Shown here one piece after another: positions 1-55,358 of a DNA stretch of 61,736 nt (its first letter is position 1; each line of letters begins with the position of its first letter). A program made the position numbers and the translations under genes. This DNA is from an uncultured Saprospiraceae bacterium (lineage in GTDB: Bacteria > Bacteroidota > Bacteroidia > Chitinophagales > Saprospiraceae), in the NCBI GenBank assembly GCA_937923345.1, contig CAKZVJ010000033.1, positions 1 to 61,736 of the forward strand, read 5' to 3'. Under the pieces are notes generated by a model. The model saw only the letters and a program-made list of their open reading frames with translations, was not told the DNA's origin and ran no database searches.

Positions 1-3000
1 ACTGTCGACCCTGTCAATGATGTGCCTGTATTGACTCCAGTTGTCATTACTCCTTTACCTGAAGATAGTGTGATTGTTATCTGTACTCCTTTTGCAGATC
101 CTGATATGGGCGACACTTTCACTTCTAGTGTGTGTGAGGAAGCCGATAATGGATCCACTACTACTGCTATCGTAAATGGCGAACTTTGTTTGACTTACGA
201 ACCAGACATGAATTTCAATGGATTGGATTCTATGTGCATCATGGTATGTGATCAGGTCGGAGCTTGCGATAGTACTATCGTTACTATTGAAGTGACTCCG
301 GTCAACGATCAGCCTGTTGCTGTGGATGATAATGTTGCGACGCAAGAAGATAATACTATCAGTATTGATGTTCAAGATAATGACTCTGATGTCGATGGCG
401 ATGACTTGACTACTTCTATTATCGGAACTAGTTCTCAAGGTGTCACTCCTACTGTCGAAGTTGATGGAAGCATTAGCTATACTCCACCTTTGGATTTTGT
501 AGGTACGGATACCATTACTTATGAAGTATGTGATAATGGCAATCCTGTGCTTTGCGATACTGCTATCGTTGTAGTCACTGTAGACCCTATCAATGATGTA
601 CCCGTATTGACTCCAGTTGTCATTACTCCTCTACCTGAAGATAGTGTGATTGTTATCTGTCCTCCTTTTGCAGATCCTGATATGGGCGACACTTTCACCT
701 CTAGTATTTGTGATGAGGCGGATAGTGGAACCTCTACTACTGCTATCGTAAATGGCGAACTTTGTTTGACTTACGAACCAGACATGAATTTCAATGGATT
801 GGATTCTATGTGCATCATGGTTTGTGATCAAGTTGGTGCTTGCGATAGTACTACCCTTACTATTGAAGTGACTCCGGTCAACGATCAACCTGTTGCTGTG
901 GATGATAATATTTCTACACAAGAAGATAATACTATCAATATTGATGTTCAAGATAACGACTCTGATGTCGATGGCGATGACTTGACTACTTCTATTATCG
1001 GAACTAGTACTCAAGGCATCACTCCTACTGTCGAAGTTGACGGAAGCATTAGCTATACCCCACCGATGGATTTTGTAGGTACTGATACTATTACTTATGA
1101 AGTATGTGATAATGGCAATCCTGTGCTTTGCGATACTGCAATCGTTGTCGTCACTGTCGATCCTATCAATGATGTGCCCGTATTAACTCCAGTTGTAATT
1201 ACTCCTTCACCTGAAGATAGTGTGATTGTTATCTGTACTCCTTTTGAAGATCCAGATATGAGCGACACTTTCACCTCTAGTATTTGTGAGGAAACCGATA
1301 ATGGAACCGCTACTACTGCTATCGTTAATGGTGAACTTTGTGTAACCTATGAACCAAACATGGATTTCAATGGATTGGATTCTATGTGCATCATGGTATG
1401 TGATCAAGTTGGAGCTTGCGATAGTACTACCCTTACTATTGAAGTGACTCCAGTCAACGATCAGCCTGTTGCTATGGATGATAGTGTTGCTACCCAAGAA
1501 GATAATGCTATCAGTATTGATGTTCAAGATAACGACTCCGATGTCGATGGCGATGATTTGACTACTTCTATTATCGGAACTAGTACTCAAGGTGTCACTC
1601 CTACTGTCGAAGTTGATGGAAGCATTAGCTATACTCCATCTTTGGATTTTGTAGGTATCGATACCATTACTTATGAAGTATGTGATAATGGCAATCCTGT
1701 TCTTTGCGATACTGCTATCGTTGTCGTCACTGTAGACCCTATCAATGATGTGCCCGTATTGACTCCAGTTATCATTACTCCTTTACCTGAGGATAGTGTG
1801 ATTGTTATTTGTACGCCTTTTGCAGATCCTGATATGGGAGACACTTTCACCTCTAGTGTGTGTGAAGAATCCGATAATGGAACCGCTACTACATCTATTG
1901 TAAATGGTGAGCTTTGTGTAAGCTATGAACCGGACGTGGATTTCAATGGATTGGATTCTATGTGCATCATGGTTTGTGATCAAGTCGGAGCTTGCGATAG
2001 TACTATCCTTACTATTGAAGTGACTCCGGTCAACGATCAGCCTGTTGCTGTGGATGATGTCGCCATAACAGTAGAAGATCAGTCTACCCCTGTAGATGTT
2101 CAACTGAATGACTCTGACGTAGATGGAGATATACTAAGCACAAGTGTTATCAATGTTAGCACTGGTCAAGCCATTGTATTTAATGCTGATAATATCCTTT
2201 ACATACCTGCGCCAAACTTTGTAGGTATAGATACAGTAACTTATCAAGTATGTGACAATGGAGCACCAGTGCTTTGTGATACTGCCATAGTACTAATATC
2301 AGTAGAGCCAGTAAATGACTCCCCTGTATTAACTCCGATTGACGTTACACCTGTTCTTGAAGATAGCATCAATGTTGTTTGTACTACATTTTCAGACATT
2401 GATATGGGAGATAGTTTTACATCTAACATTTGCAATGATGCAGAAAATGGATCAACCTCTATTTCAATTGAAAATGGGGAACTGTGCCTCACCTATGAAC
2501 CTAACAAAGACTTCAATGGTATTGATTCAATTTGCATAATGGTTTGCGATCAATCTGGAGCTTGTGATAGTACTACTGTTACGTTTGAAGTAACACCAGT
2601 AAATGATAGTCCTATTGCCCTTGATGATAATGAATCTCTAGTAAACTCTAGTGAAACTGTGATTGACGTACAAGCCAATGATTTTGATGTCGATGGTGAT
2701 GTGCTAACTACAACTATTCTAAACCTAGCATCTATACAAGGTACAGCCCTAGTATTAAATGGGGATAGTATTTCGTATTCAGCACCTTTAAACTATGAAG
2801 AGATTGACACAATAGTATATCAAGTTTGCGATAGTGCAAGTCCAACTCTCTGTGATACTGCCGTAGTAATTATAGAAGTTGAACTAGATATTTGTCAGAT
2901 ACTTGAAAATGAGCCAAGTCATCCAATAGGTGAAGAAGACTATGATGGTGGCGGGGTAAGCAATGCCACAGAATGTGAGAACGGTAATGACCCTAAAAAC

Positions 3001-5511
3001 GATAGTGATGATCTTGCTATCTTAGAAGGATTTGTTTGGGTGGACACCAATAGTGATGGAATACAAGATCCAGAAGAAGCTGGCGAAGAAAATGTAACCG
3101 TATACCTAATTGATAGAGCTGATGAATTTGATTCAGGCAACCCTACCAGACAGGCAAACGGAGATACATTAGATGTGACTTTAACCGACATTAATGGAAA
3201 GTTTACTTTCATTGATGTAGAAAGTGGTCTATATCAAGTTGCGTTTGACGCTTCTACGAGCTTGTATGGTGACGACTACAATTATACCATTCAAGATCAG
3301 GGTTTAGAGATTGAAGATAGCGACGCAAATTCTTCTGGAACAACTGACATATTTGATTTTGACGCTGGCGATCCAATGGGGTCTTCTATTTCTGCAGGAC
3401 TTTCTCTACAACCTAGAGTTGGAAACGTTATATGGATTAATCAGGCCTACGAAAATGAAGATGGCTATATCGAAGTTAATATGTCTATCGGTGTTAGAAA
3501 TACTGGAGTAGTACCATTGACGGATGTTGCTTTGTCAAATGATATGTCTCATTTAGAATCAGGTTTTATAGGAATAAAAAATCAACCTAGCATCGCGAGT
3601 TCAAGTGTATTGAACCCACCTCAAGTTAATTCAAACTATGACGGTATCAATAGTCTAGAAATTTTTGCCCCAGCTAGTAATGTAAGATTAGAAATAGAAG
3701 AAGAAGTTACTATTTCATTAACTGCAATATTCGACCCTCAAGAGATCGAATTCCCAGTGATGGTACAGTCTTCAGTAAACGCAATCGGTAGAGATAAAAA
3801 TGGAGAGCCATTTACAGATATAAGCGGTGCTACAAAGATGGCGTTAGATTTATCTGATTCTGGACAGCTTTATGAAGATACCAATTCTGGTGAACCAGGA
3901 GATACTGGTTCATCTGACGATGGTACTTCAATAAATTGCTTTGATGCTAAGCTTGAAATAGTTGGAAATGACAATGTACTTTGTATTGGTGATGAAGTCA
4001 CATTAGAAGTTAACTCATCATTTAAGAGTGTAAGTTATAAATGGACAATAATGGGCGAAGATGAGATTATTTCCACTTCGAATGAAAACACCTTCTTTCC
4101 AGGTCAGTCTACAACTTATGTGGTGACAGCATCATCGGACCATAATACATGTTTGTTTAATGCAAGAGATACAGTAGAAGTAATAGTAAGTGATGCCTTG
4201 AGTGCAAACATTACTAACAATGGTACAGACTGTAATGCTCAAGGTGCATCAATAGAGTTGAACAGTAACTTAAGTGGCGGAACGGCTCCATTTGTGTACC
4301 AATGGACTGGACCTAATGGGTTTATTTCAACACAAGCAAGCCCTTCACTTATATTAAACGATGAGGAAGTTAATGGAATATATACAGTTGAAATTCGAGA
4401 TGCGAATGGATGTACCCTTAGTGGAGAAACTACGCTTGACATTAAATTCACTCCGGATGATCCAGATGTATTTACAGAACAAGCAGTTTGTGAAGGTAGT
4501 GACATTATCCTAAGTGTTAATAATCCGAACCCAGAACAACTGTATAGATGGTATAGAAGCACAGACAATAGTGAAGTTGGACAAGGTGCATTACTAACTA
4601 TTCCAAATGCTACCCAAAGTGAAGAGGGAGGATACTATGTGACAGCTAATACAAGTAGCTGCTCTTCGAATAACTCTAACATTGTTGACGTGGTGGTTGA
4701 TGAACATTCGAGTGAAATAGCCATTGCCGGCACTGATGAGTTTGTTTGTGAAGATAACTTTACACTTACTGCGTCACCAATCAATATTGGAGAAGGTAGA
4801 TGGGTAAATATCAATACTACCGCAACATTATTGAGTCCAAATGAATCACAAACAGTGGTAACTGGTCTTCAGGTTGGTGAAAATCAATTTGCTTGGCATG
4901 TCAGCAATGGAGCATGTGTAGATACTTCTATTGATACCATCAATATCACTTATGACTTAACACCTACTGCGCAAGATGACATTTATGCGACTGAGCTTAA
5001 TCAAACGTTAGTTGAAAACGTCCTAGACAATGATTCACCTAATACAAAAGAATTTACCTTAAGCAGCTTTGTAGAGCCGCAAAATGGAGAACTTGAATTA
5101 GATAATGATGGTGTATTTAGATACACTCCAAATCCAAACTTTGTTGGAACGGATAGCTATCAATATGAATTGTGCCATCTTTATTGTCCAGACAAATGTG
5201 TTGAGGCCACTGTGTTCATTACAATTGGTGAAAATGCAGAATGTTTCGCTCCTACTATAATGACTCCCAATGAAGATGGTATCAATGATACATTTGTAAT
5301 TCCTTGCCTCAATAATTTTACAGATAGCCACATGTGCATATTCAATAGATGGGGTGATGAAGTATTTAGTGTTGCGGACTACAAGAACGACTGGGATGGT
5401 ACAAATCAGTTCAACGGAGAAACATTACCGAGTGGCACCTACTTCTATCAACTAAGAGTGAACGATGGAAATGACACTGTAATGGCTGGATACATTTATG
5501 TACAGCGATAA
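1..5511 (+). CDS. Giant repeat adhesin with T9SS type B C-terminal domain (5' partial)
   Basis: The reading frame is open from base 1, so this is the last 1,836 residues of a larger secreted surface protein. The N-terminal two thirds are repeated pairs of about 95-residue Ig/cadherin-like folds; one fold begins around VPVLTPVVITP, the other carries QPVAVDD, DNDSDVDGDDL and FVGTDTITYEVCD. A calcium-binding-like DYDGGG...NDPKNDSDD stretch and an SdrD-B-like domain (bases about 3010-3410) follow, then more Ig-like modules and a last cadherin-like fold (about 4970-5230). The end, from CFAPTIMTPNEDGINDTF to the stop, matches the gliding-motility type B sorting domain: a NEDGINDTF motif, FNRWG and a PSGTYFYQL strand. 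Families of this kind are exported by T9SS and act in adhesion or gliding. The PorP/SprF-like gene lies 44 bases downstream, as expected for a type B substrate. The start lies outside the window. Confidence 0.93.
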   Translation, partial: TVDPVNDVPVLTPVVITPLPEDSVIVICTPFADPDMGDTFTSSVCEEADNGSTTTAIVNGELCLTYEPDMNFNGLDSMCIMVCDQVGACDSTIVTIEVTPVNDQPVAVDDNVATQEDNTISIDVQDNDSDVDGDDLTTSIIGTSSQGVTPTVEVDGSISYTPPLDFVGTDTITYEVCDNGNPVLCDTAIVVVTVDPINDVPVLTPVVITPLPEDSVIVICPPFADPDMGDTFTSSICDEADSGTSTTAIVNGELCLTYEPDMNFNGLDSMCIMVCDQVGACDSTTLTIEVTPVNDQPVAVDDNISTQEDNTINIDVQDNDSDVDGDDLTTSIIGTSTQGITPTVEVDGSISYTPPMDFVGTDTITYEVCDNGNPVLCDTAIVVVTVDPINDVPVLTPVVITPSPEDSVIVICTPFEDPDMSDTFTSSICEETDNGTATTAIVNGELCVTYEPNMDFNGLDSMCIMVCDQVGACDSTTLTIEVTPVNDQPVAMDDSVATQEDNAISIDVQDNDSDVDGDDLTTSIIGTSTQGVTPTVEVDGSISYTPSLDFVGIDTITYEVCDNGNPVLCDTAIVVVTVDPINDVPVLTPVIITPLPEDSVIVICTPFADPDMGDTFTSSVCEESDNGTATTSIVNGELCVSYEPDVDFNGLDSMCIMVCDQVGACDSTILTIEVTPVNDQPVAVDDVAITVEDQSTPVDVQLNDSDVDGDILSTSVINVSTGQAIVFNADNILYIPAPNFVGIDTVTYQVCDNGAPVLCDTAIVLISVEPVNDSPVLTPIDVTPVLEDSINVVCTTFSDIDMGDSFTSNICNDAENGSTSISIENGELCLTYEPNKDFNGIDSICIMVCDQSGACDSTTVTFEVTPVNDSPIALDDNESLVNSSETVIDVQANDFDVDGDVLTTTILNLASIQGTALVLNGDSISYSAPLNYEEIDTIVYQVCDSASPTLCDTAVVIIEVELDICQILENEPSHPIGEEDYDGGGVSNATECENGNDPKNDSDDLAILEGFVWVDTNSDGIQDPEEAGEENVTVYLIDRADEFDSGNPTRQANGDTLDVTLTDINGKFTFIDVESGLYQVAFDASTSLYGDDYNYTIQDQGLEIEDSDANSSGTTDIFDFDAGDPMGSSISAGLSLQPRVGNVIWINQAYENEDGYIEVNMSIGVRNTGVVPLTDVALSNDMSHLESGFIGIKNQPSIASSSVLNPPQVNSNYDGINSLEIFAPASNVRLEIEEEVTISLTAIFDPQEIEFPVMVQSSVNAIGRDKNGEPFTDISGATKMALDLSDSGQLYEDTNSGEPGDTGSSDDGTSINCFDAKLEIVGNDNVLCIGDEVTLEVNSSFKSVSYKWTIMGEDEIISTSNENTFFPGQSTTYVVTASSDHNTCLFNARDTVEVIVSDALSANITNNGTDCNAQGASIELNSNLSGGTAPFVYQWTGPNGFISTQASPSLILNDEEVNGIYTVEIRDANGCTLSGETTLDIKFTPDDPDVFTEQAVCEGSDIILSVNNPNPEQLYRWYRSTDNSEVGQGALLTIPNATQSEEGGYYVTANTSSCSSNNSNIVDVVVDEHSSEIAIAGTDEFVCEDNFTLTASPINIGEGRWVNINTTATLLSPNESQTVVTGLQVGENQFAWHVSNGACVDTSIDTINITYDLTPTAQDDIYATELNQTLVENVLDNDSPNTKEFTLSSFVEPQNGELELDNDGVFRYTPNPNFVGTDSYQYELCHLYCPDKCVEATVFITIGENAECFAPTIMTPNEDGINDTFVIPCLNNFTDSHMCIFNRWGDEVFSVADYKNDWDGTNQFNGETLPSGTYFYQLRVNDGNDTVMAGYIYVQR
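25..2322 (+). repeat. Tandem 576-bp coding repeats in the adhesin
   Basis: The phrase encoding VPVLTP recurs at bases 25, 601, 1177 and 1753, exactly 576 bases apart, and again at 2323 after 570. Units 1-3 and the first half of unit 4 are nearly identical even at silent positions; the second half of unit 4 and unit 5 have diverged. Each unit encodes 192 residues, two Ig-like folds. The silent-site identity points to recent duplication or gene conversion. Confidence 0.95.
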
Positions 5512-34550: not shown

Positions 34551-36119
34551 GTGAACTGGAGAGAGGCCCCTTTAATTCGTCCTTTATTATTTCTTATCTT
34601 AGGAATTATAGTTACTTCCTACTGCCCTATCTTTTCTCCTCTTGTTTACCTTTCTGTATTTCTTGCCTTTACTACTGTCGCACTTGGATTACAGTTTCGT
34701 ACTGTGAAACGATCTGCACAAAAATACATTGGTGCTTTAATCTCCATTCTATTTTTTATTCTAGGTTGTTTTCTTACCAGTGTTCAGCTAGCTGAGCACA
34801 ACCCTATTCACATTTCTAATCTGTCCACAAATAAACTTACATGCATTGGTGAGATATGTTCTACTCCAAAGATCAATTCTAAAGTACAGGTTCATGTTTC
34901 GCTAGATAAAATTATTCGACAGGGCATAGAAAGTAAAGCAGAAGGCAAGATAATTTCCTTTCTCCCCATTGACAAAGAGAGTAAGCAACTAAACTATGGA
35001 GATAAAATATGGCTTGATGTCCAGTTGAATGAAATCTCCTCCTCTATGCATGCTTCTGGATTTGATTTTAAAAAATACTATGCGAATAAGGGTATACATC
35101 ACAACGCTTTTGTTTCCGACTGGAAATTAATAGAAAAGAAAAAAGGGATCCATAATTTCATTTTACAGCAAAGAGCGCATTTATTAAAGGTACTTGAGAA
35201 GTATCTACCAACGGAAAATGAATTTGCAGTTGGTGCAGCATTATGTCTAGGCAATAAAGAATTGCTCTCGGATGAACTCAAAAATGAGTTCGCCACTGTT
35301 GGTGCAATGCACGTATTAGCAGTTTCAGGTTTGCATGTTGGGATTATCTTCTCCTTATTATTTAAAATTTTAAATCTCTTTAAAACGAGGAAAAAAGTAT
35401 GGGTATTCGCGAAAATTGCACTTACCATATTGTGCATCTGGTTGTTTGCCCTTTTAACTGGAGCTAGTCCTTCTGTACTCAGGGCAGCCATTATGTTCTC
35501 ATTCATTACGATTTCTCTTTATAGCAGACGATTTAGGAATACCTATAATACCTTGGCGGCAGCGGCCTTACTGCTGCTCCTTTACGATCCTTATCTACTT
35601 TATGATGTGGGTTTTCAACTATCCTTTACTGCAGTGACTGGCATTGTTTACCTACATCCAAGAATATATACACTCTTCGATTTTAAATGGAAGGTTCCAG
35701 ATTACTTATGGCAAATCACCAGTGTTGGTATCGCAGCCCAGTTGGCTACCTTTCCCATTGGCTTGTATTACTTTCATCATCTTCCAATCAACTTTATGCT
35801 GACCGGGCTCTTTGTCGTGCCCTTTGCTTTCCTTATTCTAAGTCTAGGTATTGCGCTTTTTGTGGTACAAGTCGCATCGAGTAGCTTGGCTAGTGTAGTA
35901 GGCCTCGTATTGTATGCGGCTATCTGGATAAATAATGCATTAATCCACTTGGTGTTTTCATTACCGACCAACGACTTTGGTCATTTTGTTTTAAGTGGAT
36001 TGGGTTTAGTAGGGATCTATGGATTATACCTACTTCTAGATCAATATTTAAAAACGAGCCGCTCAGCATATCTTTGCTTGAGTTTTGGGGTATTAATTTT
36101 AGCGATATTTAGTATTTGA
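34551..36119 (+). CDS. ComEC/Rec2-family membrane protein
   Basis: The 522-residue product starts at a GTG and is rich in membrane helices. It has a DUF4131-like N-terminal part (about 1-210, with LDVQLNEISSSMHASGFDFKKYYANKGI) and the competence core (about 220-490; GAALCLGNKELLSDELKNEFATVGAMHVLAVSGLHVGII, LTGASPSVLRAAIM, YDVGFQLSFTAVTGIVY). ComEC forms the inner-membrane channel for DNA uptake. The C-terminal MBL domain found in longer members is absent, as is common in this phylum. It lies alone between tdh-kbl and a repeat-bearing spacer. Confidence 0.9.
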   Translation: MNWREAPLIRPLLFLILGIIVTSYCPIFSPLVYLSVFLAFTTVALGLQFRTVKRSAQKYIGALISILFFILGCFLTSVQLAEHNPIHISNLSTNKLTCIGEICSTPKINSKVQVHVSLDKIIRQGIESKAEGKIISFLPIDKESKQLNYGDKIWLDVQLNEISSSMHASGFDFKKYYANKGIHHNAFVSDWKLIEKKKGIHNFILQQRAHLLKVLEKYLPTENEFAVGAALCLGNKELLSDELKNEFATVGAMHVLAVSGLHVGIIFSLLFKILNLFKTRKKVWVFAKIALTILCIWLFALLTGASPSVLRAAIMFSFITISLYSRRFRNTYNTLAAAALLLLLYDPYLLYDVGFQLSFTAVTGIVYLHPRIYTLFDFKWKVPDYLWQITSVGIAAQLATFPIGLYYFHHLPINFMLTGLFVVPFAFLILSLGIALFVVQVASSSLASVVGLVLYAAIWINNALIHLVFSLPTNDFGHFVLSGLGLVGIYGLYLLLDQYLKTSRSAYLCLSFGVLILAIFSI

Positions 36120-36564: not shown

Positions 36565-37584
36565 CTATTTCTCATTTAACCAATCAAAAAATGACTCTAC
36601 TTCGTCTGGGTGTTCTAAGCACCATTTGTCAGCGCTCGCGTTGGCACCTTGCAGAATATAGTTGCAAAAGGTCTCGAAGTGATCGCTAGCAGTAAGCTTC
36701 TCAAAAAAGGGTATATAAAACTCCGTCCAGATGTCTTGCCTAGGGATTTCTAGGCTACCTAAACTTCCCAAAATAGCCTGTGAGTTCGTCATGAACAACA
36801 CTTCTTTGGGGATATCTTGTTGCTCCGTGGTACGCATGGCAGCCGATAAAAGACCAATCATCATTTCAGTAGAGGCATAAGGATTGTCATCATTGCCATC
36901 AATGAGAATGTTGATTTGATTCGCATCAATAGGGTCAGCGGAAACATCTCCACTTAGGGTCTCCGTTAACAATTTATAGGCATTCGCAGCGCGTTCTGAT
37001 TTTGGCTCCAAGAGGAGGAAGTAATAATTAGGCAATAAGGACTGGACTACTTCCTCTTTTCGTTTTTGAGCCAAAGCCAAATAAAGGTGGCTACTACTGT
37101 GCAATTGATTTTGCTGTATGGCAGCGATAAATTGATTAGTCGCTTCATCTAATTGGCCTAGTTTAAAGTAGTTGATGCCAAGATTAAAATTGAGTAGATA
37201 GTGGCCTTGGGTTTCCTTGAGCGCCTTATTGAAAAGCTTTATTGACTTTTTGGTTTTGCCTTGTTCATCCAAAACATTTCCCTTCACCATATAGGCTTCG
37301 ACCAAATGTTGATCTCTTTGCTTCAGTACTTTGTTGGCGTGAGAAAGGGCTTTCTTATAATCTGGTATTTCAGAATAGGTTAGCGCTAATTCATAATGTA
37401 CTAAGGTAGACTTAGGGTCTATATTTAGCGCCTTGGTATACTCTGCAATAGCTTTATCGTATTCTTTTTTGTCATGATAGAAGATGCCGTCCTGAACAAA
37501 CTGGCTTATCTTTTCTTCATCAGTTTGTGCGAGTGCATAAATTGAAATACTTAAAAAGATAGTAACAAGCAATAGTCTTTGCAT
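36565..37584 (-). CDS. TPR-repeat periplasmic protein
   Basis: The 339-residue product starts at the ATG at 37584, chosen over one 8 codons upstream because it gives the clean signal peptide MQRLLLVTIFLSISIYALAQ. Four or five TPRs follow (about 30-185; YDKAIAEYTKALNIDP, YKKALSHANKVLKQRD, TKKSIKLFNKALKETQ, LDEATNQFIAAIQQN). The C-terminal half is a non-TPR helical domain with LIDGNDDNPYASTEMMIG and MTNSQAILGSLGSLEIP. Probably a periplasmic or outer-membrane-associated scaffold. It lies 63 bases after the cytochrome gene in the same direction and may be its last operon partner. Confidence 0.8.
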   Translation of the reverse strand: MQRLLLVTIFLSISIYALAQTDEEKISQFVQDGIFYHDKKEYDKAIAEYTKALNIDPKSTLVHYELALTYSEIPDYKKALSHANKVLKQRDQHLVEAYMVKGNVLDEQGKTKKSIKLFNKALKETQGHYLLNFNLGINYFKLGQLDEATNQFIAAIQQNQLHSSSHLYLALAQKRKEEVVQSLLPNYYFLLLEPKSERAANAYKLLTETLSGDVSADPIDANQINILIDGNDDNPYASTEMMIGLLSAAMRTTEQQDIPKEVLFMTNSQAILGSLGSLEIPRQDIWTEFYIPFFEKLTASDHFETFCNYILQGANASADKWCLEHPDEVESFFDWLNEK

Positions 37585-37647
37585 GGTTTTTAGTTTTAGG
37601 ATAATCATCTAGGCAAACGTCAGAAAAACCTATATGCTTTGTTTCAA

Positions 37648-39591
37648 TTAAGGCCTCAATACTTTCTTAGTGATCTGAGTTCCGTCTTTAAAGAGAATTT
37701 TTAGATAGTACATGCCAGCCGTTTCTGGCAAATGGTACTGGCCATTGTGAAAAGGTAAGATATCACTACGGCCTGAATTGTCTGCGCAAGAAACTTGTTG
37801 TATTTGCTTCTCTGTTGCTATGTCTATTTTTCCATGAGTGGCTGGATTAGGATATATACGTACCGGCGTATCGCTCAGTTCATCTGCCGCAAGCGCATTC
37901 ACAAAAAGGTTGGCAATCGTATCACTCATCATGAGTATGGGTTCATTATCATTCGCCTCGAACATAGATCTAAAGGACGCAATCTCAGGCGTATTCGAAT
38001 CTAACATCGGTTGCAACCATCTTGGAGGCAAGGGTTGATAGTACACAGAAGCATATACATTGACAATGCCAGAATAGTTTTGGAGGGGTATCTTATAATG
38101 AACTATATCGGATCCTGCGCCCTCTAGGTTCTGGTCAAAATTAAAATCCTCATCTTGCAATGCGTTTCCAACAATAGTAACAGTATCATACGTACTATGA
38201 TTTTTGAAAAAACCACGGGGTGGAATCCTATTGTCCTTTAGGCCTACGAAAGCCTGCTCTAATAAGGTCGTGAATTTCCCTTCGCTATCACCAGTGACAA
38301 ACTCGTAAATCTGCACTTGGCTCTCATCATCAATCACATTATAATGAGGCTCAAACTCTGAGTCCAAATCATTCACCTCCCACTGATCATCAAATACACC
38401 ACTTCGGAAAAGAGTATCGCCAGATTCCGTCACCACCACAAACTGTAATACCGCTCTCCTACTCGGATATCCAGAAGGAAACTTATGTCCGGCAAGGTTT
38501 GTAATTTTTGCGGCAAATGAAATCGTGTCTCCGCTTTCTTCTACTAAGGATACATCAAGGTCTAAAGATCTTCGCTGCAACATATCTCGAGTAGCCGCAA
38601 TAGTCTCCTCAAAAGCCTCATCATCCGCATCAATGCCCAAGGCCTCTTTGTTGTCTTTCATCAGATTGAGCATAGTAACGTTGCCGCCTACCATCTCATG
38701 CAGCCCAAAAGGAGTGCGTCCTTCTAGGAAGGCAAAATTGGCAGAAATAACGATGGAGTCATTGAGCTGAGGAAGATGACAAGACTGACAGGTCCGCTTT
38801 TCTTCTCCCCTGGCGTAAATGGAATTTAACCACTCATGATAAGTAGCTTGCTCGGCAAAAAAATTATCCGTTTCGTTTCCTTGGACATCGTAGCTATTGG
38901 TCACTAGCGTATGACATCCTGCGCATAGCCCTTCATCGTTGATGTGTTCGCTAAACTCAGGTGTGAAGCCCACAAAGTCTGCCATAGGAGAAGCAAATGG
39001 AAACTCAAAAGGTCCATACATGACACGGGTGGTATCATAAATAAGTTCACCTGAAAAAAGACTGCCTAAATTTGTCTCTGACATCTGGTGGCAAGCCCCA
39101 CAGCTCACCCCGTCGAGACCGACGGTATCTATCAATAAATCGGCTATACTGTATAAACCATGCCCTCGCACATGATGCGTAAAGTGCCCCTGTGGAGCGT
39201 GACAAGAAGTACACTTGTCTTCTGTGGCAGCTTGGTGCTGTGGAAAGGTGGCCACCTCATGACTTACCTTCGCTCGCCAAAAAGGATCTTTGGCCGAATT
39301 AGCCATCATACTCGTCTGCCAATCATCAAAGACGTTGACATCATTTCCATCCCTATCTATATAGGCATTGCCCATAGGATCTTTACCATGACAACCCTCG
39401 CAGGCTGATCCAACTGGAAAAATCAAGGCACTGTCAACAGGAGCATGATTAGTGATAAAACCGAAATAGGCTCTCTCTTCTGCGGTATGAAAGTAAGTCG
39501 CTTTTTGACTGAGGGGCATAAAAGAAAAGAGTAGAATCATGCATATGATTCCTCCTCCAACCAGGTTTATATTTTTATGCCTTTTAATCAA
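37648..39591 (-). CDS. Pentaheme c-type cytochrome with T9SS type A C-terminal domain
   Basis: The 647-residue product has an N-terminal signal sequence (about 11-29) and five CxxCH haem sites: residues 64-68, 127-131, 164-168, 223-227 and 268-272. Many other His residues could be distal ligands (HHVRGHG, HEWL, HEMVGG). Residues about 330-560 form a beta-rich region without haem. The last 80 residues (YPNPATHGKIDIATEK ... PETAGMYYLKILFKDGTQITKKVLRP) are a type A T9SS sorting domain. Haem is attached in the periplasm, so the sorting tail implies that a folded cytochrome is then moved to the cell surface. An electron-transfer or multihaem reductase role is likely; the substrate is unknown. It follows miaE by 10 bases. 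Confidence 0.9.
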   Translation of the reverse strand: MIKRHKNINLVGGGIICMILLFSFMPLSQKATYFHTAEERAYFGFITNHAPVDSALIFPVGSACEGCHGKDPMGNAYIDRDGNDVNVFDDWQTSMMANSAKDPFWRAKVSHEVATFPQHQAATEDKCTSCHAPQGHFTHHVRGHGLYSIADLLIDTVGLDGVSCGACHQMSETNLGSLFSGELIYDTTRVMYGPFEFPFASPMADFVGFTPEFSEHINDEGLCAGCHTLVTNSYDVQGNETDNFFAEQATYHEWLNSIYARGEEKRTCQSCHLPQLNDSIVISANFAFLEGRTPFGLHEMVGGNVTMLNLMKDNKEALGIDADDEAFEETIAATRDMLQRRSLDLDVSLVEESGDTISFAAKITNLAGHKFPSGYPSRRAVLQFVVVTESGDTLFRSGVFDDQWEVNDLDSEFEPHYNVIDDESQVQIYEFVTGDSEGKFTTLLEQAFVGLKDNRIPPRGFFKNHSTYDTVTIVGNALQDEDFNFDQNLEGAGSDIVHYKIPLQNYSGIVNVYASVYYQPLPPRWLQPMLDSNTPEIASFRSMFEANDNEPILMMSDTIANLFVNALAADELSDTPVRIYPNPATHGKIDIATEKQIQQVSCADNSGRSDILPFHNGQYHLPETAGMYYLKILFKDGTQITKKVLRP

Positions 39592-39601
39592 AAGAAATGG
39601 C

Positions 39602-40216
39602 TTAGTGCATACGGTCGCCCCGTATTTCTATGTTTTTTAATATTTCTGCCTCGTAGTCCAAAAACTCCTGCCATCTAGCCAGTACTCGTTTTTCCCCGCC
39701 ATACTCTTTTGCCAAGTCTAAAAACAAACGGTAATGACCGGCTTCTGAGACCATAAATTTGTGATAAAATTCTCGCATACGCTCTTCTTCCAAATGCAAG
39801 GAAAGTAGTCTAAAGCGTTCACACGATCTTGCTTCTATGAGCGCATTGATCAATAAGCGATCAATAAATCGACCTTCTGGATCTCCCCCTTTTTGTTGAA
39901 AATCAAGCAACTTATTTACGTACTCATCTTTACGCTGTTTACCGAGTTTGAGTCCACGCTTATCTAGCTCCGCAAGTACTTGTCTAAAATGCCCCCACTC
40001 CTCCGTCACGATGGGTGCCAACTCTCTGACCATTCGCTCTCGCTCTGGATTTTTTTGGATCAAGGTAATACAGCTGGTTGCTGCCTTCTGTTCGCAGTAT
40101 GCATGATCGGTCAGTACATCCTCCAGCTTCATTTCCGCCAAATTTACCCATCTTGGATCAGTAGGCAATTTCAATCCTAACATTTGAAGGCTATCGCTTT
40201 CACTTAATTCTGCCAT
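39602..40216 (-). CDS. miaE: tRNA-(ms2io6A)-hydroxylase
   Basis: The 204-residue protein fits the MiaE family: a four-helix di-iron fold with ligands in DHAYCEQKAA, VTEEWGHF, ALIEARSCERF and VSEAGHYRLF. It hydroxylates the isopentenyl group of ms2i6A at position 37 of some tRNAs, using O2, in the cytoplasm. It begins one base after the stop of the upstream lysine-rich gene and is followed within 10 bases by the cytochrome gene. The operon mix looks incidental. miaA and miaB are not in the window. Confidence 0.93.
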   Translation of the reverse strand: MAELSESDSLQMLGLKLPTDPRWVNLAEMKLEDVLTDHAYCEQKAATSCITLIQKNPERERMVRELAPIVTEEWGHFRQVLAELDKRGLKLGKQRKDEYVNKLLDFQQKGGDPEGRFIDRLLINALIEARSCERFRLLSLHLEEERMREFYHKFMVSEAGHYRLFLDLAKEYGGEKRVLARWQEFLDYEAEILKNIEIRGDRMH

Positions 40217-52624: not shown

Positions 52625-52850
52625 CCTCCTTACAGTCGGCTGCTTACTACCCCTCACAGAAAAAGTCTTTATTTTGATAGGAGTAGATAACACCTAAATC
52701 ATACTAGATATTAATGAGACTATTTAAATAATTATGAAATGTAATCTGTGGTCAAAATTCGTGTATTTTTCTTTGTTTATAAATTTATTAATTCAAAAAA
52801 ATGCTATATTCGGAATAATATATGATTTTCAAACCAATGAAACAGAACGT

Positions 52851-55358
52851 ATGAATAAATTATTATACTTATTATTATTTTCTTTTATATCCATACTTTG
52901 CTCAGCCCAAAATTATGGTATACAAATTAGTGGCACAAATAGTGAAATTCAACTTTGCCACAGTGAGGATTTCAATGTGGGTTCAAACTTCACGGTAGAA
53001 GCTTGGATATATGCAGTAAATTGGAAAGCCGAATCTTGGCAAGGCACCATCATATCAAAAGATTATCAAAATTCTACAACTACAGGCTTCGTGCTCCGTG
53101 CTGGAAAGGAAGGAACATTAAGTTTTGCCCTAGGAAATGGTTCTTGGCCAGAATTAAAAACAGAACCATTTATGAATGAAGATCAGTGGTACCATGTTGC
53201 TGCAGTAAAAGAAGGGTCTTCTGTACGACTTTTTATTAATGGACAACTTGCTGCAAGCAGTACAATTACTGGTGAACCAAACCACAACACTGGAATCCTA
53301 AAAATAGGTGAATCCGCTGGCTTTCCAGGTCGGGATTGGGATGGCTTTTTAGATGAAATAAGAATTTGGAATGTAGCGAGAACAGCTCAAGAGTTGATAG
53401 ATAATCAAACAACTGAGTTTAATGGAAATGAACCTGGGCTTGTAGCTTACCTCCCTATGAATGAAGGAAGTGGCAACACAAGCGCTAATCTAAGTGATAG
53501 TAACTGCAATGCGAACCTTATAAATCTAAATAACTCTAGCTGGGTTGAAGGATTTTCCATACCAGGAGAAGATATTGGTATTGTGAACATTTCTGCCCCA
53601 GATGTAGTATCCATTTTTCAAAAACCGGTAAAAATTCGTGCGGAAATACAAAATTTTGGACTGGAAGAAATAAGCAATATCCCTGTACAGGTTTCAATAG
53701 ATGAAACCGTAGCTTTTACTCAAAATTTTAATATTACAATTCAACCAGGAGAAGTTGTTGAAGTCATCTTTGACCAAATCATCGATCTATCTGACAGTGA
53801 AAGTACTTCTCTTTCATTAAGTACCATGCATCCAAATGATGGTAATGCTCTGAATGATTCTCACGTCGTCGATTATAAAAAATCGGATAACGAAAACATG
53901 GTTACCATTCTGGATAGAACACAATTTAATTTTTCTGATGCTGGACAAACTCAATTTACTATAATGAATCTTCCAGAAAACACAGAAGACTACGAGCAGC
54001 TTCTGCTGCACATCTCTGTTGAATGTCCAAGTACGGGTTGTGACCCTTGGGATCAACCTGCAAAAATATCTGTGAATACAGATCAAGGATCTCATGAGAT
54101 TGCCAGATTTGTAACTCCATTCGGTATCGGTTGTGGTAACTGGACAGTAGATGTTACTGATTTTAAATCTATATTAAGAGGAAATGTTACATTCCAGTCA
54201 TTTGTACAAGTATGGGGACCATCTGGTTGGCTTACAACTGTAGAGCTAGAATACGTACGCGGTGATGAACCTAGTTACAACATTTTCACCCCGCTTTGGG
54301 AAAATAATTACCTGGTCTACGGAGATCCTGCAATCTCTCATGATTTAGAGGAACAAAGTATTTCTTTGAATAAAAATACTGAAAGTAATCATATCCGAAT
54401 GACTATGTCAGGTCATGGACAAGGAAATACAGATAACGCTGCTGAATTTTCTGATAGAACACATACTTTTTACCTGAATGGTCAAAACTTTGCTCCACAT
54501 AAACTTTGGAAAACAGATTGCCCACAAAACGAATGTGCCAATCAACTTGGCACTTGGCTGTTTAGTAGAGCTGGATGGTGTCCGGGTCAAGCAGTAGAAC
54601 CATTTATTGTGAATACTACTGGTGTTGTGGCTGCTGGTGAAAACTTAAATATAGATTATGTATTAGAAGATTATACGAACTTACTAAACACGGGCTACAA
54701 TAATGCGGGCCATACAGAGCCCCATTACCGTATATTTTCTTACTTCGTAGAAACCTCGAAAAATAGATTTGTAGACTATCGTAATCTTAAAGCAGATAAT
54801 ATTAACATTGTATCGAATGGTGATATTAATAATCCTGCTATTGAATCCTTGGACTTCACTATCTCAAACACAGGAAACATAGATATGAGCAACTTCAACA
54901 TTTCGTACTGGGTGAACGAAGAATTCATCTCCGAACAAACCGTAGCTACGAGTATAGCAGCTGGTGAAAGTCAGACCATTTCGTTTAGCAATATTTCTGG
55001 CTTTGACTTCGGCACCGACAATGAAGTAATTGCAGTAATAAACGCCGTAGGTGATGAAAATCTAAATGATGATGCGGCAAAAGCCAATTTCAACAACAAT
55101 ACTGTAAGTGTTGCTGAAATAGAATTAGCTGAAGTGCAGCTATCCCCTAATCCTTCTTCTGGCATCATTTACATGGATGTAGAGGACGCTTTCATTAACG
55201 GCAACTTACGTGTTATAGACATATTAGGAAGAGAAGTCAAAGTTCAAAAGATTTTATCGCCGAACTCGAAGATAGAATTAACTGAAACTGGTGTTTACTT
55301 TTTTAATTTTGTAACTACAAATGGGACACATCGCACTGAGAGAGTAATCGTAGAATAA
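52851..55358 (+). CDS. Secreted PNGase F-like protein with LamG domain and T9SS type A tail
   Basis: The 835-residue product starts at the ATG at 52851 (signal MNKLLYLLLFSFISILCSAQ); a longer frame from 52734 is unlikely. Domains: LamG/concanavalin-like (about 22-230; FTVEAWIYAVNW, WYHVAAVKEGSSVRLFINGQL, DEIRIWNVART), CARDB-like (about 240-345), PNGase F N-terminal and C-terminal sandwiches (about 350-670; CPSTGCDPWDQPAKI with Asp398, SGHGQGNTDNAAEF with His522 and Glu532, FSRAGWCPGQAVEPF), a second CARDB-like domain (about 680-755), and a type A sorting tail (LSPNPSSGIIYMDVE...TGVYFFNF). The conserved Asp and Glu match positions needed in Flavobacterium PNGase F, so removal of N-glycans outside the cell is plausible, for nutrition or host/prey interaction. 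Confidence 0.85.
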   Translation: MNKLLYLLLFSFISILCSAQNYGIQISGTNSEIQLCHSEDFNVGSNFTVEAWIYAVNWKAESWQGTIISKDYQNSTTTGFVLRAGKEGTLSFALGNGSWPELKTEPFMNEDQWYHVAAVKEGSSVRLFINGQLAASSTITGEPNHNTGILKIGESAGFPGRDWDGFLDEIRIWNVARTAQELIDNQTTEFNGNEPGLVAYLPMNEGSGNTSANLSDSNCNANLINLNNSSWVEGFSIPGEDIGIVNISAPDVVSIFQKPVKIRAEIQNFGLEEISNIPVQVSIDETVAFTQNFNITIQPGEVVEVIFDQIIDLSDSESTSLSLSTMHPNDGNALNDSHVVDYKKSDNENMVTILDRTQFNFSDAGQTQFTIMNLPENTEDYEQLLLHISVECPSTGCDPWDQPAKISVNTDQGSHEIARFVTPFGIGCGNWTVDVTDFKSILRGNVTFQSFVQVWGPSGWLTTVELEYVRGDEPSYNIFTPLWENNYLVYGDPAISHDLEEQSISLNKNTESNHIRMTMSGHGQGNTDNAAEFSDRTHTFYLNGQNFAPHKLWKTDCPQNECANQLGTWLFSRAGWCPGQAVEPFIVNTTGVVAAGENLNIDYVLEDYTNLLNTGYNNAGHTEPHYRIFSYFVETSKNRFVDYRNLKADNINIVSNGDINNPAIESLDFTISNTGNIDMSNFNISYWVNEEFISEQTVATSIAAGESQTISFSNISGFDFGTDNEVIAVINAVGDENLNDDAAKANFNNNTVSVAEIELAEVQLSPNPSSGIIYMDVEDAFINGNLRVIDILGREVKVQKILSPNSKIELTETGVYFFNFVTTNGTHRTERVIVE

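Follow-up and report, generated by a model that had tools for sequence, protein, structure and literature searches.

A 61,736-nucleotide contig of an uncultured Saprospiraceae bacterium, here called the window, encodes a pentaheme c-type cytochrome that carries a type IX secretion system (T9SS) tail on the same chain. This pairing of five CxxCH sites with a T9SS tail had been noted in a preliminary description of the gene; we confirm it, and find it to be a property of a whole protein family. The reading that we favor, and consider probable, is that the protein is a cell-surface cytochrome of the c552/ExtKL/MccSep (PHC) superfamily, a T9SS cargo that passes electrons outside the cell or reduces a small substrate.

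The window cytochrome gene

The gene occupies exactly the interval originally assigned to it and lies on the minus strand, with a TTG start at 39591 and a stop at 37648-37650. The N-terminus of the 647 amino acid product has a hydrophobic stretch with an end resembling a signal peptidase I site, ..LSQKA/TYFHT, as judged by eye. All five CxxCH sites were located, and 10 of the 12 cysteines fall within them; three or more such sites arose in 0 of 200,000 shuffles of the window protein. The features are listed below, where A1 denotes an alignment of 35 family members.

37648..39591, minus strand: pentaheme c-type cytochrome gene with T9SS tail, 647 aa, TTG start (shuffle test)
39502..39591, minus strand: N-terminal signal peptide, residues ~1-30 (by eye; relatives end alike before FHT/FHS)
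39388..39402, minus strand: heme site 1, CEGCH, residues 64-68 (motif, shuffle test)
39304..39306, minus strand: Met96 (SMMAN), His (SMHA) in cytochrome c552 (HMMER alignment to 5ze8; invariant in 35/35 A1 rows)
39199..39213, minus strand: heme site 2, CTSCH, residues 127-131 (motif, shuffle test)
39088..39102, minus strand: heme site 3, CGACH, residues 164-168 (motif, shuffle test)
38911..38925, minus strand: heme site 4, CAGCH, residues 223-227 (motif, shuffle test)
38776..38790, minus strand: heme site 5, CQSCH, residues 268-272 (motif, shuffle test)
38455..38490, minus strand: GHKFPSGYPSRR loop, residues 368-379, in the C-terminal beta domain (profile alignment)
37651..37869, minus strand: T9SS sorting domain, residues 575-647 (profiles, AlphaFold model comparison)

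A family of tailed pentaheme cytochromes

A scan of genome contigs yielded 364 relatives of the window cytochrome, and the best 80 were retained, 4 of them cut by a contig edge. All 80 are from Bacteroidota; Saprospiraceae predominate, and Chitinophagales and Flavobacteriales account for some of the records. Every one has exactly five CxxCH sites at near-constant spacing (63-65/36-38/59-61/42-48), and a T9SS-like tail is visible by eye in each retained relative whose gene runs to its end. Among 150 same-family genomes, including that of the window, 53 matched at E<=0.001; on reading, 41 of these contained the body of the cytochrome (E<=4e-77), the other 12 being tail-only or weak matches. The same design recurs in hundreds of relatives. 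Judged from sequence, pentaheme cytochromes are tied to T9SS across hundreds of genomes.

The preliminary description called surface electron transfer through T9SS poorly explored. In agreement, a literature search found no paper joining T9SS or type IX secretion with multiheme cytochromes, which is weak evidence as subscription journals lay mostly outside its reach. For Saprospiraceae of activated sludge, secreted multi-heme proteins have been predicted and extracellular electron transfer suggested, in the portions available of a study (PMC11495043) whose main text has 0 occurrences of "T9SS" or "type IX". No T9SS-tailed cytochrome appears in the available parts of PMC3534657, PMC7399161 and PMC11748539.

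The T9SS tail and the predicted route to the cell surface

Taken alone, the window tail is a near miss, because it falls below both curated cut-offs: residues 579-644 score 20.9 bits with TIGR04183 (E 2.6e-4, cut-off 23), and the tail scores 16.6 bits with PF18962 (E 0.0098, cut-off 27). TIGR04183 is matched by 32 of the 35 A1 members at E<=0.01. Against solved structures, the tail region of the A1 profile matched the T9SS C-terminal domains (CTDs) 8glk, 5hfs, 5ag8, 7pq4 and 5ag9 at E 0.003-0.03, among them the CTDs of Endonuclease I and of gingipains, and matched RemZ (8gl8) more weakly at E 0.14. The tail of the AlphaFold model (residues 575-647) superposes on the RemA CTD (8gl6, chain D) over 68 of 76 residues at 2.4 A with Z 7.5, and Foldseek gave E 3.9e-3 for the same chain; with Z under 8, this match is support and not proof. 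The type A C-terminal domain of the preliminary description therefore stands for 32 of 35 family members and for a RemA-CTD-like fold, but the window's own tail is sub-threshold. Along A1 the body is kept and the tail is variable save for one glycine. Sorting domains are usually little conserved in sequence.

Profile searches identified SprA (2370 bits) and PorU (1219 bits) in the window genome (91% complete, 335 contigs), together with a CcsA-type heme-attachment gene. T9SS-tailed places number at least 150 there, a lower bound, 150 of 236 candidates having been scored and the window gene lying outside the scored list. In c-type cytochrome maturation heme is attached in the periplasm, and T9SS exports folded cargo. 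The signal peptide read from the sequence by eye would direct the cytochrome to Sec export, and in the periplasm the Ccs system would attach five hemes to the CxxCH sites. The folded cytochrome would be exported through SprA, guided by its C-terminal domain, which PorU would remove, leaving the cytochrome anchored. On the surface it might pass electrons between a donor and an external acceptor, or act on the cell's outer side as a reductase of some small substrate. With T9SS type A cargo (RgpB, RemA and others) the window protein shares a C-terminal CTD, SprA and PorU in the genome and, judged by eye, probably a signal peptide; it differs in that the cargo is a multiheme cytochrome. The family predicts that a folded cargo with covalently bound heme crosses SprA.

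Alternatively, the protein could be a periplasmic cytochrome whose degenerate tail no longer directs export. The sub-threshold score of the window tail would fit such a protein, as would the 3 of 35 A1 members without a TIGR04183 match at E<=0.01 and a tail-less sister clade, described below, in genomes that retain SprA. However, almost every member of a large family has retained the tail, the modelled fold of the tail resembles that of a T9SS CTD, and the tail-less rows are one clade lacking the entire domain. We regard a periplasmic location as improbable; a surface location of the window cytochrome is well supported in silico.

Fold and superfamily

The AlphaFold model built on A1 has a pLDDT of 73.6 and a pTM of 0.68; it is weak near residues 174-227 and 249-273 and contains no heme. 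Its best Foldseek match is the penta-heme cytochrome c552 of Thermochromatium tepidum (5ze8, E 6.9e-12), and VIA-align superposed model residues 54-561 on 5ze8 with Z 16.9 at 3.7 A over 337 aligned residues, the next row having Z 9.1. The A1 profile matches 5ze8 and a second solved structure, 9wt8 (MccSep), and the ExtKL model NF040886 is matched by 35 of 35 A1 members (E<=0.01). By these model and profile comparisons, the body of the window protein belongs with the pentaheme cytochromes c552, ExtKL and MccSep.

In common with 5ze8 the family has five hemes and the fold, and the two can be aligned by sequence at heme sites 2, 3 and 5 and across the GHxxPxG beta domain. Nothing in the solved 5ze8 chain (435 aa) aligned to the T9SS tail, and 5ze8 has His at the position of Met96 and Ala at that of Tyr375. 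With ExtKL of Geobacter and MccSep the family shares the NF040886 match and the GHxxPxG beta domain. In the profile alignment Tyr375 of the GHKFPSGYPSRR loop stands at the selenocysteine, U325, of MccSep, whose deposited structure 9wt8 is the mutant U325A. The window protein was rejected as an ExtKL equivalog, with Tyr at the selenocysteine position and a local NF040886 match (357-397) of 30.2 bits, far under the cut-off of 250. The ext cluster, in the available part of its description (PMC5877670), includes a porin gene, extI, whereas none lies near the window gene. The PHC family was defined with ExtKL and has been linked, citing others (Baquero et al. 2023), to c552 and the archaeal nanowire AvECN (PMC11976967, available part). 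Members of that family in cable bacteria are described as ExtKL- and c552-like pentahemes, a likeness that the window protein shares; the same part of PMC11976967 places them among periplasmic cytochromes with no mention of T9SS, in contrast to the tailed family described here.

Met96 and Tyr375 are both invariant in 35 of 35 A1 rows. In a search that accepted only M or H at position 96 (5 of 62 rows unreadable), Met was found in 38 of 43 tailed rows, the readable ones, and in 11 of 11 tail-less rows paired with a predicted barrel (see below), and His in 8 of 8 more distant, lipoprotein-like pentahemes. Outside A1, some of the tailed relatives have Ile or Phe in place of Tyr375, and the lipoprotein-like ones have Ala, Ser or Thr. 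Met96 is possibly a His-to-Met swap of a distal heme ligand, which would raise the potential of that heme.

The two functions allowed for in our favored reading could also be set against each other, with the protein a surface reductase, for example of an oxyanion, and not a relay, its hemes feeding a site around the GHxxPxG loop. Several residues of this loop are invariant in 35 of 35 A1 rows, the closest kin include MccSep, deposited as a mutant at its selenocysteine, and ExtKL, a predicted five-heme selenoprotein, is named in the part available of PMC5877670 as a candidate for reducing selenite. Yet the selenocysteine position is Tyr in the window protein, and the examined loci hold no conserved substrate or operon for a reductase. 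We think such an enzyme rather unlikely. Much less likely still is assembly of the exported protein into extracellular cytochrome filaments, a notion that draws on the superfamily match to c552 and on the c552-PHC-AvECN link; speaking against it are the large beta domain and the tail, additions with no evident part in a filament.

Other resemblances were rejected. Among the folds listed, matches to transglutaminase and RbmA structures are matches to the beta domain and were not counted as kinship. For the pentaheme nitrite reductase NrfA, TIGR03152 was matched by 1 of 35 A1 members (E 0.005), and the window protein had no PF02335 match at E<=0.1. The scans also returned more divergent proteins. 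A related cytochrome of 1056 aa (L175, G104:C70) has six CxxCH sites and a long N-terminal extension, and the C-terminal part of a pentaheme-like protein (L211:223-2601, plus strand) contains a MopE metal-binding motif (PF11617). Lipoprotein-like signals mark the distant five-CxxCH relatives at L156-L158, L160, L200, L202, L203 and L205; some of the lipoprotein-like relatives have acidic residues directly after the cysteine (CKDD, CREDE) and might be surface lipoproteins.

Possible electron transfer across the outer membrane

The surface decaheme cytochromes OmcA and MtrC provide an analogy, in that the window protein would share with them a presumed role in surface electron transfer. It differs from them in having five hemes, no MtrB-type partner that we could find, and T9SS instead of a porin-cytochrome complex. 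The MtrB-type porin (PF11854) had no match in the window genome, and 1 of 32 genomes (G062) had a marginal one (E 7.5e-4). The MtrC-like domain PF22113 likewise had no match in the window genome at E 0.01; it scored 24.9 bits against the window protein (cut-off 30), and an MtrC/MtrF-type domain was rejected as sub-threshold. The window genome has 321 CxxCH coding sites, compared to 151 for the reversed pattern, and no second cluster of five was seen by eye among the 100 of the 321 places listed. With no MtrB porin, PF22113 match or other five-CxxCH cluster listed, no outer-membrane electron route was seen. Given its kin, ExtKL and cytochrome c552, surface electron transfer by the window cytochrome is plausible.

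Neighboring genes

Two genes flank the cytochrome gene on the same strand:

39602..40216, minus strand: MiaE-like (PF06175) gene, upstream, 10 nt before the cytochrome
36565..37608, minus strand: TPR protein gene, downstream

These and a neighbor encoding 486 aa were rejected as a functional operon, as their order is repeated only in a near relative (L031), and the MiaE-like gene is for the same reason probably no functional partner. The gene order is absent from a genome of the same genus (G009).

In many relatives, a T9SS-tailed protein of ~920-950 aa that contains FG-GAP repeats as well as UnbV_ASPIC and Ig domains is encoded near the cytochrome, for example:

L045:2758-5517, minus strand: FG-GAP/UnbV_ASPIC/Ig protein with T9SS tail, pentaheme neighbor

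Such a gene was found at 10 of 21 larger loci (hand-picked, window included) and at 19 of 80 named loci; among the 42 of these with >=3.5 kb on both sides, it was found at 12. Conversely, 14 of 19 full- or near-full-length relatives of this protein (E<=1e-95) lie within ~1.5 kb of a cytochrome, in 12 genomes of which 9 were chosen because the pair had already been seen; the same 12 genomes have 27-83 matches each to FG-GAP/UnbV-type proteins. The copy in the window genome (G000:C274:6625-9393, 949 aa, T9SS tail 42.6 bits) is unlinked to the cytochrome. This beta-propeller-like protein is likely a co-exported surface partner in many relatives.

Elsewhere in the window, we noted three proteins encoded on the plus strand. 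An adhesin-like protein of 1829 aa (22-5511) combines Big_9/cadherin-like repeats with a CHU_C type IX secretion domain; an 874-aa protein (52734-55358) has PNGase F-like domains together with one that is laminin-G-like, and its T9SS tail is weak; and a ComEC/Rec2-like protein of 522 aa (34551-36119) matches its model only to position 427 of 663.

A tail-less sister clade and its predicted cytochrome-barrel neighbor

Of 395 genomes from the phylum, 22 (window genome included) have the cytochrome body (E<=2e-122), and these divide evenly into 11 tailed and 11 tail-less, the tail-less proteins stopping at about profile residue 560. In a tree of 62 body sequences, made by a quick method with labels set by eye and with one flagged long branch (L159), the tail-less, barrel-paired rows form one clade, with support of 100, among tailed groups. 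SprA is present in all 32 genomes examined, tail-less ones included, which rules out absence of T9SS as the cause of tail loss.

In all 7 of the tail-less neighborhoods that were retrieved, the adjacent upstream gene has the same orientation as the pentaheme gene and belongs to one family. In its members a cytochrome c of class I (PF13442, residues 56-142) precedes a region with weak matches to PF13557, which we take to be an outer-membrane barrel family. Loci encoding this predicted fusion include:

L161:7959-9143, minus strand: cytochrome c-barrel fusion, upstream of tail-less pentaheme
L164:4742-5929: cytochrome c-barrel fusion, upstream of tail-less pentaheme
L165:5069-6226: cytochrome c-barrel fusion, upstream of tail-less pentaheme
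L167:7536-8729, minus strand: cytochrome c-barrel fusion, upstream of tail-less pentaheme
L176-L186: cytochrome c-barrel fusions, further loci

A profile of the fusion gene gave long matches (E<=1.6e-161) in 11 of 11 tail-less genomes, each lying no more than ~170 bp upstream of the pentaheme gene and one of them (G387) with an internal stop, and in 0 of 21 other genomes, where there were at most cytochrome c domain matches. PF13557 was matched by 9 of 9 members of the upstream family (best E 1.4e-4; 0.019-0.067 for the first three tried). The AlphaFold model of the fusion is of low confidence (pLDDT 32.5), a count of amphipathic strands gave no clear barrel signal either way, and the profile of the fusion protein returned only cytochrome-type matches among solved structures. 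As structure prediction failed, the predicted barrel rests on the nine PF13557 matches, the strands of the low-confidence model and a C-terminal Trp. The upstream protein may thus be a cytochrome c joined to an outer-membrane barrel, and possibly a single-chain electron conduit; its single-heme-plus-barrel layout presumably recalls Cyc2.

This pattern, a tail or a cytochrome-barrel neighbor, is the most interesting new element of the analysis. It leads us to suggest, tentatively and with more doubt than confidence, that Bacteroidota have two interchangeable ways of placing one ancestral pentaheme cytochrome at the outer membrane, a C-terminal tag for T9SS export or, in the tail-less clade, a dedicated single-chain cytochrome c-barrel partner that carries electrons through. 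If so, the T9SS route would be one of extracellular electron transfer in which a secretion machine replaces the porin-cytochrome complex. The tagged and barrel-paired sister clades offer a natural comparison for the exit of electrons from Bacteroidota cells.

A separate observation comes from a same-family genome, in which a protein of 1087 aa (L212:642-3902, plus strand) has a C-terminal part with no Pfam match that appears barrel-like by eye, preceded on the same chain by an N-terminal pentaheme part.
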